Virus record (IMG/VR): IMGVR_UViG_3300007799_000007
Span: 1 to 37,992 of that record
Strand: one strand, 5' to 3'
DNA length: 37,992 nt
Origin: a virus
Part shown: one piece after another, positions 2,510-36,007 of the stretch
Layout: every line of letters begins with the position of its first letter
Numbering within the stretch: position 1 is the stretch's first letter
Program-made: the position numbers and the translations under genes
Notes under the pieces: model-generated
The model's database searches: none
Told to the model about the DNA's origin: nothing
Seen by the model: only the letters and a program-made list of their open reading frames with translations

Positions 2510-2859
2510 ATAAGGAATCCGATATTTACCACATTCCCGTTAAGCCCATGAGCATTAACGAAGCATGGAAAGGGCGAAGATTTAAAACGGATAAATACAA
2601 GGCTTACGTTATCGCTGTTAAGGCGAAGTTGCCCGTAATTAAATTGCCACCGACACCATATAAAGTTTCGTTTTGGTTTGGGTTTAGTACATCGCTTTCA
2701 GACGTTGACAATCCGACAAAGCCAACGCTCGATATACTTTGCCAGAAATATAATTTTAGCGACCGACACGTAATGGAATTGACGTTGAAAAAAGTCATGG
2801 TTAAAAAAGGATCAGAGTTCTTTTCCTTTAAAATTGAACATTACAACGAACAATCCTAA
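2506..2859 (+). CDS. RusA-like Holliday junction resolvase
   Basis: Likely a RusA-family endonuclease that resolves four-way junctions during phage recombination and replication. The core SDVDNPTKPTLDIL at residues 65-78 supplies the family's D-x-DN-x2-K-x3-D pattern (D66, D68, K72, D76) and a further acidic residue, D86, follows in NFSDRHV. Its length of 117 residues is normal for RusA. It starts within the stop of the DnaA-like gene (ATGA overlap) and ends just before a truncated membrane-gene copy. Confidence 0.82.
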   Translation: MNKESDIYHIPVKPMSINEAWKGRRFKTDKYKAYVIAVKAKLPVIKLPPTPYKVSFWFGFSTSLSDVDNPTKPTLDILCQKYNFSDRHVMELTLKKVMVKKGSEFFSFKIEHYNEQS

Positions 2860-2869
2860 AATACCTAAA

Positions 2870-2929
2870 ATGAAATACCTACTTAGACTGATTGCCTTTC
2901 CTTTTATTTTTGTCCTGATTGTAATTTGA
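2870..2929 (+). pseudogene. Truncated copy of the small membrane protein gene at 3691
   Basis: An ATG-initiated frame of 19 codons whose sequence matches the first 60 bp of the gene at 3691-3882 with about seven substitutions. It ends in TGA exactly where the full copy continues (TTTCAGCAG). Similarity starts at the ATG and stops at the truncation. Together with the full copy it flanks the adenine methyltransferase gene, so it looks like a scar of gene insertion or unequal recombination. A 19-residue hydrophobic peptide could still be made. Confidence 0.7.
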
Positions 2930-2960
2930 TCTAATTTAAACAAGAAAATTTAGGAAGCCA

Positions 2961-3677
2961 ATGTTCAGCTATTACGGAAGCAAGTCAAAGATTGTAGATT
3001 ACTACCCACCACCGAAGCATAAACGGATTATAGAACCGTTTGCAGGCAGTGCAAGGTATAGTTTAAAGTATTGGGAGAATGAAGTTTTGCTGGTGGATAA
3101 ATACGATGTAGTTTATAATGTTTGGAAGTATTTACAACGAGCTACAAAAAATGACATACTTTCTTTACCTAAAATGAAGCAAGGTGATAATGTAAATGAT
3201 TTTAATATTTCACAGGTGGAAAAAGATTTTATAGGATTTTTGATTTGCAGAGGGATGGAAAGTCCAAGAAAGAACGTAAGCAGTTTTGTTGGTGATATTT
3301 CAGATAAACTAACAGAAATAGCAAATAACGTATTTAAAATAAATCACTGGACAATTATTAACGGCAGCTACGAGAATTTAAGAAATGAAGAAGCTACCTG
3401 GTTTATAGACCCGCCTTACCAATTTGGCGGGGAGCATTACGTAGAAAGCACAAAAAACATAGATTTTAATAATCTTTCGGATTGGTGTAAAAGCAGGAAC
3501 GGTCAAACAATAGTTTGCGAAAACACAAAAGCTGATTGGTTGGATTTTAAGCCAATGAAGGAAATGACAGGTTCACAACATAAGACAGTTGAAGCTATTT
3601 GGTCAAACCATAAAACTAATTACGACAACGTGCAGATGTCGATGTTTAAAGAATCGCTTTTCAAAAAACCTTTATAA
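2961..3677 (+). CDS. D12-class DNA adenine N6-methyltransferase
   Basis: S-adenosylmethionine-dependent DNA methyltransferase of the Dam/D12 type. The N-terminus has YYGSKSK (residues 4-10), motif I is IEPFAGSARYS (24-34) and the catalytic motif IV is DPPY (150-153). At 238 residues it is slightly short for the family and no separate target-recognition domain is obvious, so the site cannot be predicted. No restriction partner is next to it. It probably protects phage DNA or marks it. It sits between a truncated and a complete copy of the same small membrane gene, which suggests late acquisition. Confidence 0.85.
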   Translation: MFSYYGSKSKIVDYYPPPKHKRIIEPFAGSARYSLKYWENEVLLVDKYDVVYNVWKYLQRATKNDILSLPKMKQGDNVNDFNISQVEKDFIGFLICRGMESPRKNVSSFVGDISDKLTEIANNVFKINHWTIINGSYENLRNEEATWFIDPPYQFGGEHYVESTKNIDFNNLSDWCKSRNGQTIVCENTKADWLDFKPMKEMTGSQHKTVEAIWSNHKTNYDNVQMSMFKESLFKKPL

Positions 3678-4024: not shown

Positions 4025-4834
4025 ATGAAGGGTTACGAGCTTTCCAGGTACTGGTTTGATTTCTCATTTGAGAATCCAGAGGCAAAGACTATTCACACCG
4101 CTATCTTTATGTGGGTTGTCGAGCTAAACAATCGCTTGGGTTGGAAGGCTCAATTTGGCCTACCAACAAGAGATACCTGCGAGGGCCTTTCAATCGGAAA
4201 TAAAACTACTTACAACACAGCCTTAAAAGATCTTCATAGTTGGGGATTTATTACGATTATAAAGGAGTCAAAAAACCAATACCAAAGCTGCATAATCTCA
4301 ATAAATGAGAAAAAGTGCCGTGTCAAAAATGTGTCGGCACTAGATCGGGCACTGCTTAGGCACTGCGAAAGCACCGTAGGAGGCACTAGTGCGGGCACTG
4401 CAACCATAGACAAACCAATAAACCATGAAACAAGTAAACCAATAAACAAAGAGGGGCCCGCCCATTTATCTGCTGACCCGGTTAAGTGGTGGAAAACTGC
4501 CACAAAAGAAATCTTGGAAAAAAAATGTGATCCGTTCAAAGAATTTTATCCGACGAGTTTTATTGAATACTTTGTGGGGTATTATATGCAGGACCACGAG
4601 GACGGAGGATCACTTTTAAAATACGAGCAAAAATTTTCAGTTGAATTTAAGTTAAAAGCATTTTGGGCCGATCCAAAAACAAAAGCAAAATATTCACAAA
4701 AAACACAACTACTTCCCGATGGAATCTCTACCCCAGCAAACGAGCGCCTTGCAAACGCAATCCAGCAACATCGAATCTTTAATGAGGCACTTGATCGAGC
4801 TAACGAAAACAAAGGGGATTACGGCGCGTCCTGA
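4025..4834 (+). CDS. Putative phage replication initiator (winged-helix-like N-terminus)
   Basis: A 269-residue protein. Residues 1-95 (GYELSRYWFDFSFEN, then NRLGW, LPTRDTCEGL, WGFITIIKESKNQYQSCII) fit a family common in Bacteroidota phages and elements whose N-terminal half looks like a winged-helix DNA-binding domain. A low-complexity linker (about 100-145) separates it from a C-terminal domain (about 150-235). The linker-coding DNA contains an iteron array (4336-4401) and then an A-rich stretch, the same layout as lambda O, where the initiator gene contains the origin. I infer an initiator role; no catalytic motif is present. ATG 4025 directly follows a structured, terminator-like leader. 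Confidence 0.6.
   Translation: MKGYELSRYWFDFSFENPEAKTIHTAIFMWVVELNNRLGWKAQFGLPTRDTCEGLSIGNKTTYNTALKDLHSWGFITIIKESKNQYQSCIISINEKKCRVKNVSALDRALLRHCESTVGGTSAGTATIDKPINHETSKPINKEGPAHLSADPVKWWKTATKEILEKKCDPFKEFYPTSFIEYFVGYYMQDHEDGGSLLKYEQKFSVEFKLKAFWADPKTKAKYSQKTQLLPDGISTPANERLANAIQQHRIFNEALDRANENKGDYGAS
4336..4401 (+). repeat. Phased GGCACT iteron array, candidate replication origin
   Basis: Five exact GGCACT hexamers start at 4336, 4348, 4359, 4382 and 4394. A degenerate sixth (AGCACC) lies at 4370. Start-to-start spacing is 12, 11, 11, 12 and 12 bp, about one helical turn, so all copies face one side of the DNA. Because 11 is not a multiple of 3 the repeat changes reading frame and cannot be explained as a protein repeat. 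Downstream an A-rich strand carries a 12-bp direct repeat (AAACCAATAAAC at 4412-4423 and 4436-4447) that could act as an unwinding element. Confidence 0.6.
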
Positions 4835-5543
4835 TGAGATCTCGGTCGTCCTGCTTGCCATGGACTTTCCGATAAAGCAAATGGGAGTCGGTGAGTTTAG
4901 AGCGCAGTTCGAACAAAAAATGGCCGTCGTGGTAGATGCGTATTTTGGATCGACGCTAGGAACGACAACGGTCACGATCAACGAATGCAGGGAGATAATG
5001 CTTCGCGACTTTCCATCGTGGGGAATCGGCGAGCTAATGGAAGCGGCCAGGAACTTGGAGCCGGGACAGATAAAAACTTTCGGCCAGTTTACCGTTGATC
5101 ACTTCAAGACAATGCTTTTTGCCCATCAAAAAAAACGAAATGCAATAGCCGCAGCAATCGCCGAAAGCAAAGCGAGTGAAGATAAATTGGAGCGAGAAAA
5201 AATAGTTGAGGGTTCCCGGATCTGGTTTCGCGACCAAGCAGAAAATTGGTTTTTGCAGCAAAAAAATATCTGCACTTACTCGCACTGGAGCAAGTTGCCT
5301 TACGGATATTGTTTGCAAATTGCGCCGTCGTTGGAGGAAAACATACCGCTCAAGCACGAAGCGATGAGGCACGCAGCCGACGAAATGCAGGCCGACGCAG
5401 AAAAATCACGGGATGCAGGCCGGCTTTCAAATTACGAGAGCATAATGGCCGCACTAAGGAAAGAACGCGGCGAAGATCAGGTGCTGACAGCCAAAAAAAT
5501 ATATCCGCGTTTGCTCGTCTGGAATGAAATCAAACCTAAGTAA
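4719..5543 (+). CDS. Replication-module protein of unknown function
   Basis: A 274-residue, largely helical protein with no motif I can name. Residues 95-150 (TINECREIMLRDFPSWGIGEL, then GQIKTFGQFTVDHFKTMLFAHQKKR) resemble a family found next to initiator-like genes in Bacteroidota phages. Residues 150-185 look like a charged helix and the C-terminus is helical (residues 220-260). Position after the initiator suggests a helicase loader or a similar partner, but no Walker motif is present. The first ATG (4719) overlaps the initiator gene by 116 bp; ATG 4782, with a 53-bp overlap, is a plausible alternative start. Confidence 0.6.
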   Translation: MESLPQQTSALQTQSSNIESLMRHLIELTKTKGITARPDEISVVLLAMDFPIKQMGVGEFRAQFEQKMAVVVDAYFGSTLGTTTVTINECREIMLRDFPSWGIGELMEAARNLEPGQIKTFGQFTVDHFKTMLFAHQKKRNAIAAAIAESKASEDKLEREKIVEGSRIWFRDQAENWFLQQKNICTYSHWSKLPYGYCLQIAPSLEENIPLKHEAMRHAADEMQADAEKSRDAGRLSNYESIMAALRKERGEDQVLTAKKIYPRLLVWNEIKPK

Positions 5544-5573: not shown

Positions 5574-5957
5574 ATGGCCATGAAGCTGGAGGGAAAAATA
5601 GAAGCCCTGATTGATTTTATAGTGGAAGGAAAAACCTTTAGGCAGATCGCCAAAGTAATGGGGTGTTCAATTTCGACGCTTCATTACTTCCTCGCTTTGC
5701 CCGAACACTCCGCGCGCACGAATGCCGCTCTAGCGTTAAGTGCTGCCCAATATGCTGATAAGGCAGAAGATGTTTTAATTGAATGCAAATCGACAATGAC
5801 AGAGGTCACAAGAGCCAAAGAACTTTCTCAATATTATCGGTGGAAGGCAAAGATGCGAGACCCTAAAAAATACGGCGACAAGATTGACGTTGACCTAGGC
5901 GTTCCACCAGGTACTGAAATAATTATAAAGGGCCAAAAGTTTGCAGATAACGATTGA
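5574..5957 (+). CDS. Terminase small subunit
   Basis: DNA-recognition subunit of the packaging motor. The N-terminal part (residues 8-45, IEALIDFIVEGKTFRQIAKVMGCS) is a helix-turn-helix. The middle has AAQYADKAEDVLIE, and the C-terminal part has RAKELSQYYRWKAKMRDPKKYGDKIDVD, typical of small-terminase families. Its length of 127 residues is normal. It overlaps the large terminase by 17 bp. Start choice: ATG 5574 or 5580; the promoter box 4 bp upstream favours 5574. Confidence 0.82.
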   Translation: MAMKLEGKIEALIDFIVEGKTFRQIAKVMGCSISTLHYFLALPEHSARTNAALALSAAQYADKAEDVLIECKSTMTEVTRAKELSQYYRWKAKMRDPKKYGDKIDVDLGVPPGTEIIIKGQKFADND

Positions 5958-34485: not shown

Positions 34486-34506
34486 GTAAAATATCGGAGT
34501 AGGGGT
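34486..34506 (+). repeat. 21-bp direct repeat, right copy
   Basis: A perfect repeat of 34204-34224, 282 bp away. It lies outside any gene and looks like a duplicated 3' end of the secreted protein gene. Confidence 0.85.
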
Positions 34507-34518
34507 GGGTAAGAAAAG

Positions 34519-34770
34519 TTAAGCGGAAGGCTCAATAAGTTCTACAACAGCGGCCATATACATCATTTGAGCCATGCCGTTTTCTTGGTAGTGGATCGTT
34601 TCACTTATCTTTAAAAGAGCCGGTATTTCTTCAAGATTGTTGCTTTTCATTACCTCCTTTAAAATATGCGTGTACGGCTGTAACTTTTCCTTGTATTCCC
34701 CTTTAAAAAAGGATTTTGCCGTATCTCTACATTCGTAAAGTTTTGCAGCGATTTTAATTTGTTTTTCCAT
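34519..34770 (-). CDS. Small helical protein
   Basis: An 83-residue protein starting MEKQIKIAAKLYECRDTAKS, all helical, with a late hydrophobic stretch (MAQMMYMAAVVELIE). An in-frame ATG at 34821 would add 17 residues. ATG 34770 is preferred because it carries the repeated leader ATAATTGAAACAATGG shared with the two other - strand small genes. No family recognised. Confidence 0.55.
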   Translation of the reverse strand: MEKQIKIAAKLYECRDTAKSFFKGEYKEKLQPYTHILKEVMKSNNLEEIPALLKISETIHYQENGMAQMMYMAAVVELIEPSA

Positions 34771-34804
34771 TGTTTCAATTATTAGTGATTGCCCTAGCGC
34801 AAGG

Positions 34805-34999
34805 TTAGTGTTCATTGTCAATCATCAAATCCGCTATAATCAACTTTACGCCAAGCAACGCGGACAGCATCATTTTAAAATCCTTATTAGATAAGGTCTT
34901 GCTTTCCGATAGGCGCTGTTTATACATTTCAATTCTACTTAACAGCAGTTCAGGCGACAACGACCGCTTACTACCTCCCAATTCCTTTTCCTTTTCCAT
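34805..34999 (-). CDS. Small helical protein
   Basis: A 64-residue protein starting MEKEKELGGSKRSLSPELLL, charged at the N-terminus, then two helices, the last hydrophobic (MLSALLGVKLIIADLMI). It has the same kind of leader (AATTTAAACAATGG) and the same first residues (MEK) as its downstream neighbour. No family recognised. Confidence 0.55.
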   Translation of the reverse strand: MEKEKELGGSKRSLSPELLLSRIEMYKQRLSESKTLSNKDFKMMLSALLGVKLIIADLMIDNEH

Positions 35000-35027
35000 T
35001 GTTTAAATTATTTAGTGAAGTGCCAGG

Positions 35028-35201
35028 TTAACCATACCACGGATCTAAGCAATGGCCCATACATTTATCACATCCGAAGCCCGAATCATTGTCTTGAAGA
35101 TTTCCACAACCCATACATTCATATCCTAAAAGTTCATCCTCATCCTCATCATCACCCCATCCTTCGCTACTACCATCTGTCAATTCCTTTTCCTCACTCA
35201 T
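35028..35201 (-). CDS. Acidic zinc-ribbon small protein
   Basis: A 57-residue protein. It starts MSEEKELTDGSSEGWG, continues with a run of Asp and Glu, then YECMGCGN and FGCDKCMGHC, two C-x2-C pairs forming a zinc ribbon. Its ATG overlaps the stop of the endolysin gene by 3-4 bp, so the two are translationally coupled. Function unknown. Confidence 0.6.
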   Translation of the reverse strand: MSEEKELTDGSSEGWGDDEDEDELLGYECMGCGNLQDNDSGFGCDKCMGHCLDPWYG

Positions 35202-35626
35202 GGCCTAACGATTAACAGTTCAGACTTTCCGGTATTTCTGCAATCAAGGTGACTCCATGATCTTGTGAAGGTAACATCTTCTACCGTTGTTAATCCCAAA
35301 TTCCTTAATTCAATCCAGTTGCTTTTAATAAACTCAAACACTTCCGGCGGTGTCATTCCTTTTACCTTAATATCTGCCGCCTTTCCGAATTTATGAAGCG
35401 ACATTCTAGCGCCTGTTGTCGTGTTGAATCTACGTAAGCCGCTTTCCTTATACTGACCGCCAGTGTGCCAATTATTAACGGTTACGGCCTTGCCAGTTTT
35501 AACCCGTATAAACTCGCAGATATTAACAATCTTAGGGTCGATGTACCAAATAGATTTTTGGCCCATTGCTGCAAACAGTTCCGGGTAAACAAATTCCTGA
35601 ATTACAAAGTTCGGTGATATTTTCAT
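35198..35626 (-). CDS. Peptidase M15-family endolysin
   Basis: A 142-residue peptidase of the M15A type (D-Ala-D-Ala carboxypeptidase or L-Ala-D-Glu endopeptidase group) that cuts peptidoglycan stem peptides at lysis. Zinc ligands are visible: H78 and D85 in SLHKFGKAADI, and H126 in SWSHLDCR. Supporting signatures are NNWHTGGQY and GLTTVEDVTFTRSW. No signal peptide is seen, so a holin or similar is needed. It belongs to the leftward operon after the DUF551 gene. Confidence 0.88.
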   Translation of the reverse strand: MKISPNFVIQEFVYPELFAAMGQKSIWYIDPKIVNICEFIRVKTGKAVTVNNWHTGGQYKESGLRRFNTTTGARMSLHKFGKAADIKVKGMTPPEVFEFIKSNWIELRNLGLTTVEDVTFTRSWSHLDCRNTGKSELLIVRP

Positions 35627-35644
35627 GGTGTTTTTTAAATTATG

Positions 35645-36007
35645 TCAATCCTTTTTATTAACCGGCGGCGGCGAAGGTAAGGGCATCCAATGAGTAATGT
35701 AATCCTGAAACCTTAGCGTTGGCTGCATAGTCTTCATATCAACTGCGCTAAATAAATCCGAAACGTGAACCTGACCTCTTTTTTTATTAGCAACCAATTG
35801 ATCAATAACGACTAAATAATAGCCCTCTGTTTCCGGCAACCTGTCATTAACATCTATCCATTTGGTAAACTGTTCAGCGTACCGAGTCATAGCAAGTTCG
35901 GTAAATTCGTGTACGGTATAGCCGGGTGAATCGTAAATCAAAGAGTACCAGCCTTCATAGCTATTCTCTTTCGCTATTTCCTTTAATATCTCTGATGGTT
36001 CTTTCAT
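35645..36007 (-). CDS. DUF551-domain protein
   Basis: A 120-residue protein. Its C-terminal half has FTKWIDVNDRLPETEGYYLVVI and then DYITHWMPLPSPPP, the W-I-x-V-x-D-x-LP...HWMPLP-x-PP signature of DUF551, common in phages. Its function is unknown. It is the first gene of the leftward lysis operon; a TTCCTTTG box (36019-36012 on this strand) sits 4 bp before its ATG, repeating the leaderless promoter spacing. Confidence 0.82.
   Translation of the reverse strand: MKEPSEILKEIAKENSYEGWYSLIYDSPGYTVHEFTELAMTRYAEQFTKWIDVNDRLPETEGYYLVVIDQLVANKKRGQVHVSDLFSAVDMKTMQPTLRFQDYITHWMPLPSPPPVNKKD

Follow-up and report, generated by a model that had tools for sequence, protein, structure and literature searches.

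A putative replication origin of short iterons and an A-rich 8-bp array inside the initiator gene of a Bacteroidota phage family

Results

The putative initiator gene and its protein

The sequence analysed here, referred to as the window, is the full length of the virus record IMGVR_UViG_3300007799_000007 (37,992 bases). Positions 4025-4834 of the plus strand hold an ORF for a putative replication initiator of 269 aa, whose translation comprises an N-terminal winged-helix DNA-binding domain (residues 1-93, coded by 4025-4303), a linker (coded by 4304 to about 4459) and a C-terminal domain. The next gene (4719-5543, plus strand, 274 aa) overlaps the initiator gene by 116 bp, and genes for the small (start at 5574) and large terminase subunits lie downstream. 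In an AlphaFold2 model of the window protein, residues 1-93 form a winged helix-turn-helix with a pLDDT of about 97; the helices of the helix-turn-helix are predicted at residues 48-54 and 60-73, the second being the predicted recognition helix. The linker is mostly modeled at low confidence, with a single helix at residues 105-118, and the C-terminal domain is poorly predicted.

A Pfam search with the 269-aa window protein retrieved no matches, and searching solved structures by sequence likewise produced none. The lambda O profile had no Pfam match in the window protein or in 61 relatives, and there was no Pfam match to a Rep_3 or two-winged-helix Rep profile, apart from one weak RepA_IncFII match (E 0.005) in a single relative. 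Some relatives, the window protein not among them, matched PHROG families annotated as 'O-like'. When the fold of the window protein was searched against solved structures, only generic winged helices were returned, all as weak matches.

Two arrays in the linker-coding region of the window

Within the linker-coding part of the gene, the hexamer GGCACT occurs on the plus strand at 4336-4341, 4348-4353, 4359-4364, 4382-4387 and 4394-4399, with a degenerate copy, AGCACC, at 4370-4375 that contains AGCA, the commonest core in the family. The six copies follow each other at steps of 12, 11, 11, 12 and 12 bp and fall, in order, in reading frames 2, 2, 1, 0, 0 and 0. The initial annotation had described five exact copies and one degenerate copy at 11-12 bp steps in the linker-coding part of an initiator-like gene, all of which were found where it had placed them. 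It had also stated that the steps break the reading frame and that the repeat is selected as DNA, and the succession of frames and the recoding test both bear this out. The GGCACT array is the densest hexamer cluster anywhere in the window. Of 60 first-order Markov genomes of equal length, 59 had at most 3 copies per 64 bp (58 of them reaching 3) and one had 4; across 100,000 synonymous recodings of the window protein, GGCACT never exceeded 3 copies, compared to the 5 present. A 20-bp segment with two iterons is found twice (4336-4355 and 4382-4401, 90% identity, 46 bp apart), which suggests an internal duplication of iteron pairs.

The annotation's further claim, that one helix face carries all copies, had to be given up. 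At 10.5 bp per turn, the six copies of the window drift by about 190 degrees, and the nine copies of the Polaribacter phage Danklef_1 go nearly full circle; alignment would be obtained only at about 11.5-11.7 bp per turn. Because the conserved pitch is about 11.7 bp, versus the 10.5 bp per turn of B-DNA, the copies are not on one helix face, and one-face phasing was rejected.

A junction element, ATAGAC (ATAGAT in its family form), is located at 4406-4411 of the plus strand, 12 bp past the last iteron core. It is followed at 4412-4447, on the same strand, by an A-rich array of five AAAC units at exact 8-bp steps (4412, 4420, 4428, 4436 and 4444), which is presumed to be the unwinding element. 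The A-rich stretch with a 12-bp direct repeat reported in the initial annotation is present, with AAACCAATAAAC at 4412 and 4436, and proved to be part of this larger array with its 8-bp pitch. Positions 4402-4452 have 29% G+C, with 61% A versus 10% T on the given strand. When stretches of 36 to 50 bp are ranked by stability across the window, the A-rich tract falls in the lowest 4-6% without being the minimum. The A+T-rich element of a lambda/SPP1-type origin is recognizable here in an A-rich 8-bp array of low stability at a fixed distance from the iterons, which is predicted to unwind.

Conservation of both arrays among homologues

At least 459 relatives were confirmed in IMG/VR, and further relatives were obtained from 30 genome assemblies and from the isolated Polaribacter phages Danklef_1 to 5. 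The assemblies with relatives include Dyadobacter, Chitinophagaceae, Lutibacter, Sphingobacterium, Pedobacter, Chryseobacterium, Flavobacterium, Porphyromonadaceae, Cecembia and others; one relative lies in a MAG labelled Clostridia, and the named hosts are otherwise almost all Bacteroidota. From 112 usable homologues, 65 non-redundant linkers were kept after similar linkers had been dropped. Both arrays are present in the same place in nearly all homologues.

Across the family, the first array is built of RGCAYTG-type iterons with a core of about 7 bp, typically in 4-7 copies (range 2-10). Pairs of GCA cores in the 65 linkers lie 11 bp apart in 95 cases, 12 bp apart in 229 and never 10 or 13 bp apart, and distances of 23, 24, 34 and 35 bp predominate at the next spacing orders; the same analysis shows no such peaks in the N- and C-terminal coding regions. 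The step pattern 12-12-11-12-11-12 recurs across the family, whole or truncated, and 49 of 65 linkers place the junction element 12 bp past the last iteron core. Iteron chains of at least 5 units were found 43 times in linkers and 0 times elsewhere (417 kb of the 65 loci, both strands). The unbroken array passes through frames 2, 1 and 0 in 37 of 65 linkers; with skipped units allowed, 50 of the 65 make use of every frame. In most linkers the same iteron core is read in three frames, as KAL, KH or ST. Repeats at 12 bp throughout could preserve the reading frame, whereas each of the recurrent 11-bp steps shifts it; a DNA pitch of about 11.7 bp therefore appears to be the conserved quantity. The arrays of two linkers (L012 and L021) include pure 12-bp in-frame tandem expansions, which suggests that iteron copy number can change by slippage.

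Selection at the DNA level

We compared the observed arrays to synonymous recodings of the same proteins. Phased iteron pairs number 300, versus 33 +/- 6 under synonymous recoding, and codon choice is skewed, with Ser written as AGC in 48% of cases in linkers versus 14% elsewhere and Ala as GCA in 71% versus 43%. Between close pairs of homologues, synonymous third positions differ by 26% in the N-terminal domain, by 10.7% in linker sequence outside the iteron cores and by 2.4% within the cores; the pairs behind these values are non-independent, and in each of them the cores were delimited on a single member. For the second array, 161 pairs of AAC at 8 bp were observed; synonymous recoding gives 55 +/- 8 such pairs, and shuffling the order of the codons gives 9 +/- 3.

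It could be argued that what is selected is a lysine/alanine-rich or serine/threonine-rich linker peptide, with the DNA repeat arising as a side effect or through recent slippage. The simple tandem expansions in L012 and L021 speak for such a protein-level repeat, as does the part of the AAAC array (55 of the 161 pairs) that amino acids explain. The reading of one DNA core in three frames, the skew to AGC and GCA codons and the gap between 300 and 33 phased pairs all speak against it. Synonymous recoding refutes it for the iterons and leaves it as a partial explanation of the AAAC array, and as an account of the locus we give it next to no probability. The initial annotation had proposed that homologues should keep the spacing of the hexamers while codons vary, and spacing, frames, recoding and synonymous divergence agree in showing this pattern. 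The direct repeats lie within the initiator coding sequence and are conserved as DNA; from these comparisons, selection of the iterons as DNA inside the initiator gene, with the A-rich tract after them, is strongly supported.

The predicted recognition helix and the operator alternative

Two iteron subtypes are found across the family, AAAGCA-type and ACRGCA-type. The alignment columns that best track the subtype include residues 50, 56, 58, 60 and 64, in the predicted helix-turn-helix. This association between subtype and predicted recognition helix is suggestive, and largely reflects one deep split of two clades. The window protein has the SIGNK helix of the second (ACRGCA) type, and its iterons likewise have G at the first core position, with mixed flanks.

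A winged-helix protein with sites inside its own gene could also be a transcription regulator that binds there and blocks transcription, the A-rich tract then being the code for a flexible linker. The Danklef_1 homologue carries the annotation 'transcriptional regulator', the best PDB folds in our search were repressor-type winged helices, albeit weak ones, and initiators often regulate themselves too. Against an autoregulatory operator, the sites lie some 310 bp into the gene, other parts of the loci have no array, a second 8-bp array is conserved at a fixed distance, and the C-terminal domains and neighbours are replication proteins. We consider the operator reading unlikely, and such a role could be an added function of the site rather than an alternative to an origin.

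Replication context and neighbouring genes

The C-terminal domains of relatives match PHROG families annotated as 'replication initiation O-like', 'replication initiation protein', 'DnaD-like helicase loader', 'primosomal protein' and 'replisome organizer'. The next gene encodes a DnaB helicase in three relatives (L001, L017 and L088), a Toprim/DnaB primase-helicase in another (L031) and a Walker-A protein of loader size, a putative loader, in some others. The window's gene at this site (4719-5543) belongs to no known family and has zero homologues in IMG/VR; from its position, its product may be a helicase or loader.

Given the terminase genes of the window, and as small terminase genes often carry or adjoin pac, the arrays could be taken for a packaging (pac) site. 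Many array-bearing relatives, Danklef included, have DnaB, a primase-helicase or another gene, not terminase, in the next position, and these neighbours disfavour a pac site to the point that we regard it as extremely unlikely. The large terminase subunit of the window has only distant matches (23% identity), mostly in Firmicutes phages, and is no guide to the host.

The N-terminal domain and the C-terminal domain have separate histories. Among pairs with N-terminal identity of at least 70%, only 15% share a related C-terminal domain. By sequence, the N-terminal domain and the arrays form a cassette, with C-terminal domains swapped right after the array. Such swapping is what a recombination hotspot exchanging initiator cassettes would produce, and a plasmid centromere-binding winged helix was also among the weak fold matches, as might be expected of a partition or centromere-like site; in either case replication would start elsewhere. 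No partition ATPase was seen among the neighbours examined, in a non-systematic look, and a pure recombination site would need no phased iterons matched to a recognition helix. We judge a partition or recombination site to be very unlikely.

Other initiators that share a C-terminal domain were also examined for arrays of their own. The initiator gene of Vibrio phage 1.259.O (L117, 1027-1806), which has only the C-terminal domain in common, contains in the linker four copies of TCCGGAG, each exactly 11 bp on from the last, and then TTAGAT repeats, and is possibly the same design with other sites. That of a faecal phage (L118, 1054-1734) has GAACAA repeats at 9-10 bp and then AATGGN at 6 bp in the linker; its six GAACAA copies exceed all 1000 synonymous recodings. 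In a clustered-hexamer test of sharers of the C-terminal domain, L118 was significant and L117 and L115 were borderline, the test being insensitive enough to miss lambda itself.

Other indications of an origin were sought in the window. The initial annotation had proposed examining GC skew around 4.4 kb, which gave no signal: there is no change at this position, and the measure is uninformative because nearly all long genes are on one strand. The skew is negative (about -0.2) over 34501-36000, where minus-strand ORFs sit at 35198-35626 and 35645-36007, the latter of which matches PHROG families of unknown function. A DnaA-type oriC was rejected, as only two TTWTNCACA sites occur in the window (25 and 23315), below the chance mean, and none is near the array. 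Danklef_1 (L008) encodes, shortly upstream of its initiator (2629-3075), a stand-alone 148-aa protein that is largely a DnaA DNA-binding domain (PF08299, E 2.7e-11) and could be a competitor or a recruiter of host DnaA. The ORF at 2057-2509 of the window, upstream of the initiator gene, was considered as a counterpart and rejected, as it has no real similarity to this protein.

Discussion

We conclude that 4336-4447 is very probably a phage replication origin located inside its own initiator gene, in the manner of lambda and SPP1; binding, melting, helicase loading and origin activity are what we infer for it. The lambda-like origin proposed in the initial annotation stands with respect to the DNA-level iterons, the A-rich tract and the lambda O layout, and was corrected in its one-face phasing and in the extent of the second array.

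In lambda O, the N-terminal domain binds DNA and the C-terminal part recruits a partner, a division of labour to which we liken that of the present family. Similar to our locus, the lambda origin occupies the central part of its initiator gene (O at 38686-39585, iterons at 39034-39118), has its A-rich tract after the iterons and has an overlapping next gene, which in lambda serves helicase handling. Lambda O binds both its iterons and single-stranded A/T-rich DNA (PMC7466680). The lambda origin differs in having four 18-bp iterons at 20-24 bp steps, whereas the cores here are about 7 bp at 11/12 bp, and no ordered array comparable to the 8-bp AAAC array is evident by eye in lambda.

The oriL of SPP1 likewise has direct repeats and an AT-rich unwinding element inside its initiator gene, gene 38, with a loader and a DnaB-family helicase as partners (PMC6316719). 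The likeness is one of layout and extends to the intragenic repeats, the predicted unwinding element and, in relatives, the types of partner (in SPP1, G38P replisome organizer, G39P loader and G40P helicase). SPP1 infects a host of another phylum and has, besides oriL, the origin oriR; the 65 loci here showed no second iteron array.

Iterons that adjoin an unwinding element with its own short tandem repeats are also found at RK2 oriV and at ori2 of Vibrio chromosome 2. TrfA binds the repeats of the RK2 element as single strand (PMC4081077), and RctB does so with the ATCA repeats of the ori2 element (PMC10316083). Unlike these, the putative origin here is intragenic, and single-strand binding is proposed by analogy: the AAAC array may be a single-strand site for the initiator.

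In the mechanism that we propose, the N-terminal winged helix would bind the iterons with one subunit per 11/12-bp step, and the bound subunits would together form a coil of protein over roughly 60 bp. This coil would destabilise the adjacent AAAC array at 4412-4447 and lead to its opening, and the interchangeable C-terminal domain, together with the next-gene product where that is a helicase or loader, would bring the replicative helicase onto the opened strand. Coating by subunits, melting of the AAAC array and helicase loading are proposed because the layout equals that of lambda and SPP1 oriL. A more specific version, which we offer tentatively and consider rather doubtful, is an origin with two rulers: the AAAC array would serve as a landing strip, specific in sequence and bound as single strand at a pitch of 8 nt, and the iterons (about 35 bp per three units), running across three frames, would force an underwound coil of about 11.7 bp per turn, the whole travelling with the DNA-binding domain as an exchangeable cassette among Bacteroidota phages.

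Intragenic origins are already known; what is new is the family, the short iterons at 11/12 bp and the 8-bp AAAC array. The initial annotation had called this a family with no described origin, and we too found none in the open-access literature, nor any description there of an intragenic origin in Bacteroidota phages. The accessible part of the Danklef paper lists replication genes and no origin.

For a widespread family of phages and probable prophages of Bacteroidota (at least 459 relatives), the locus offers an origin that can be put to the test. It also suggests a rule for annotation, by which RGCAYTG repeats at 11/12 bp and, after them, AAAC repeats at 8 bp mark a winged-helix gene as that of an initiator and not of a 'transcriptional regulator'. 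A minimal origin fragment could serve for replicating vectors in Bacteroidota, and the two conserved pitches lead to structural predictions on how a small winged-helix initiator would open DNA.
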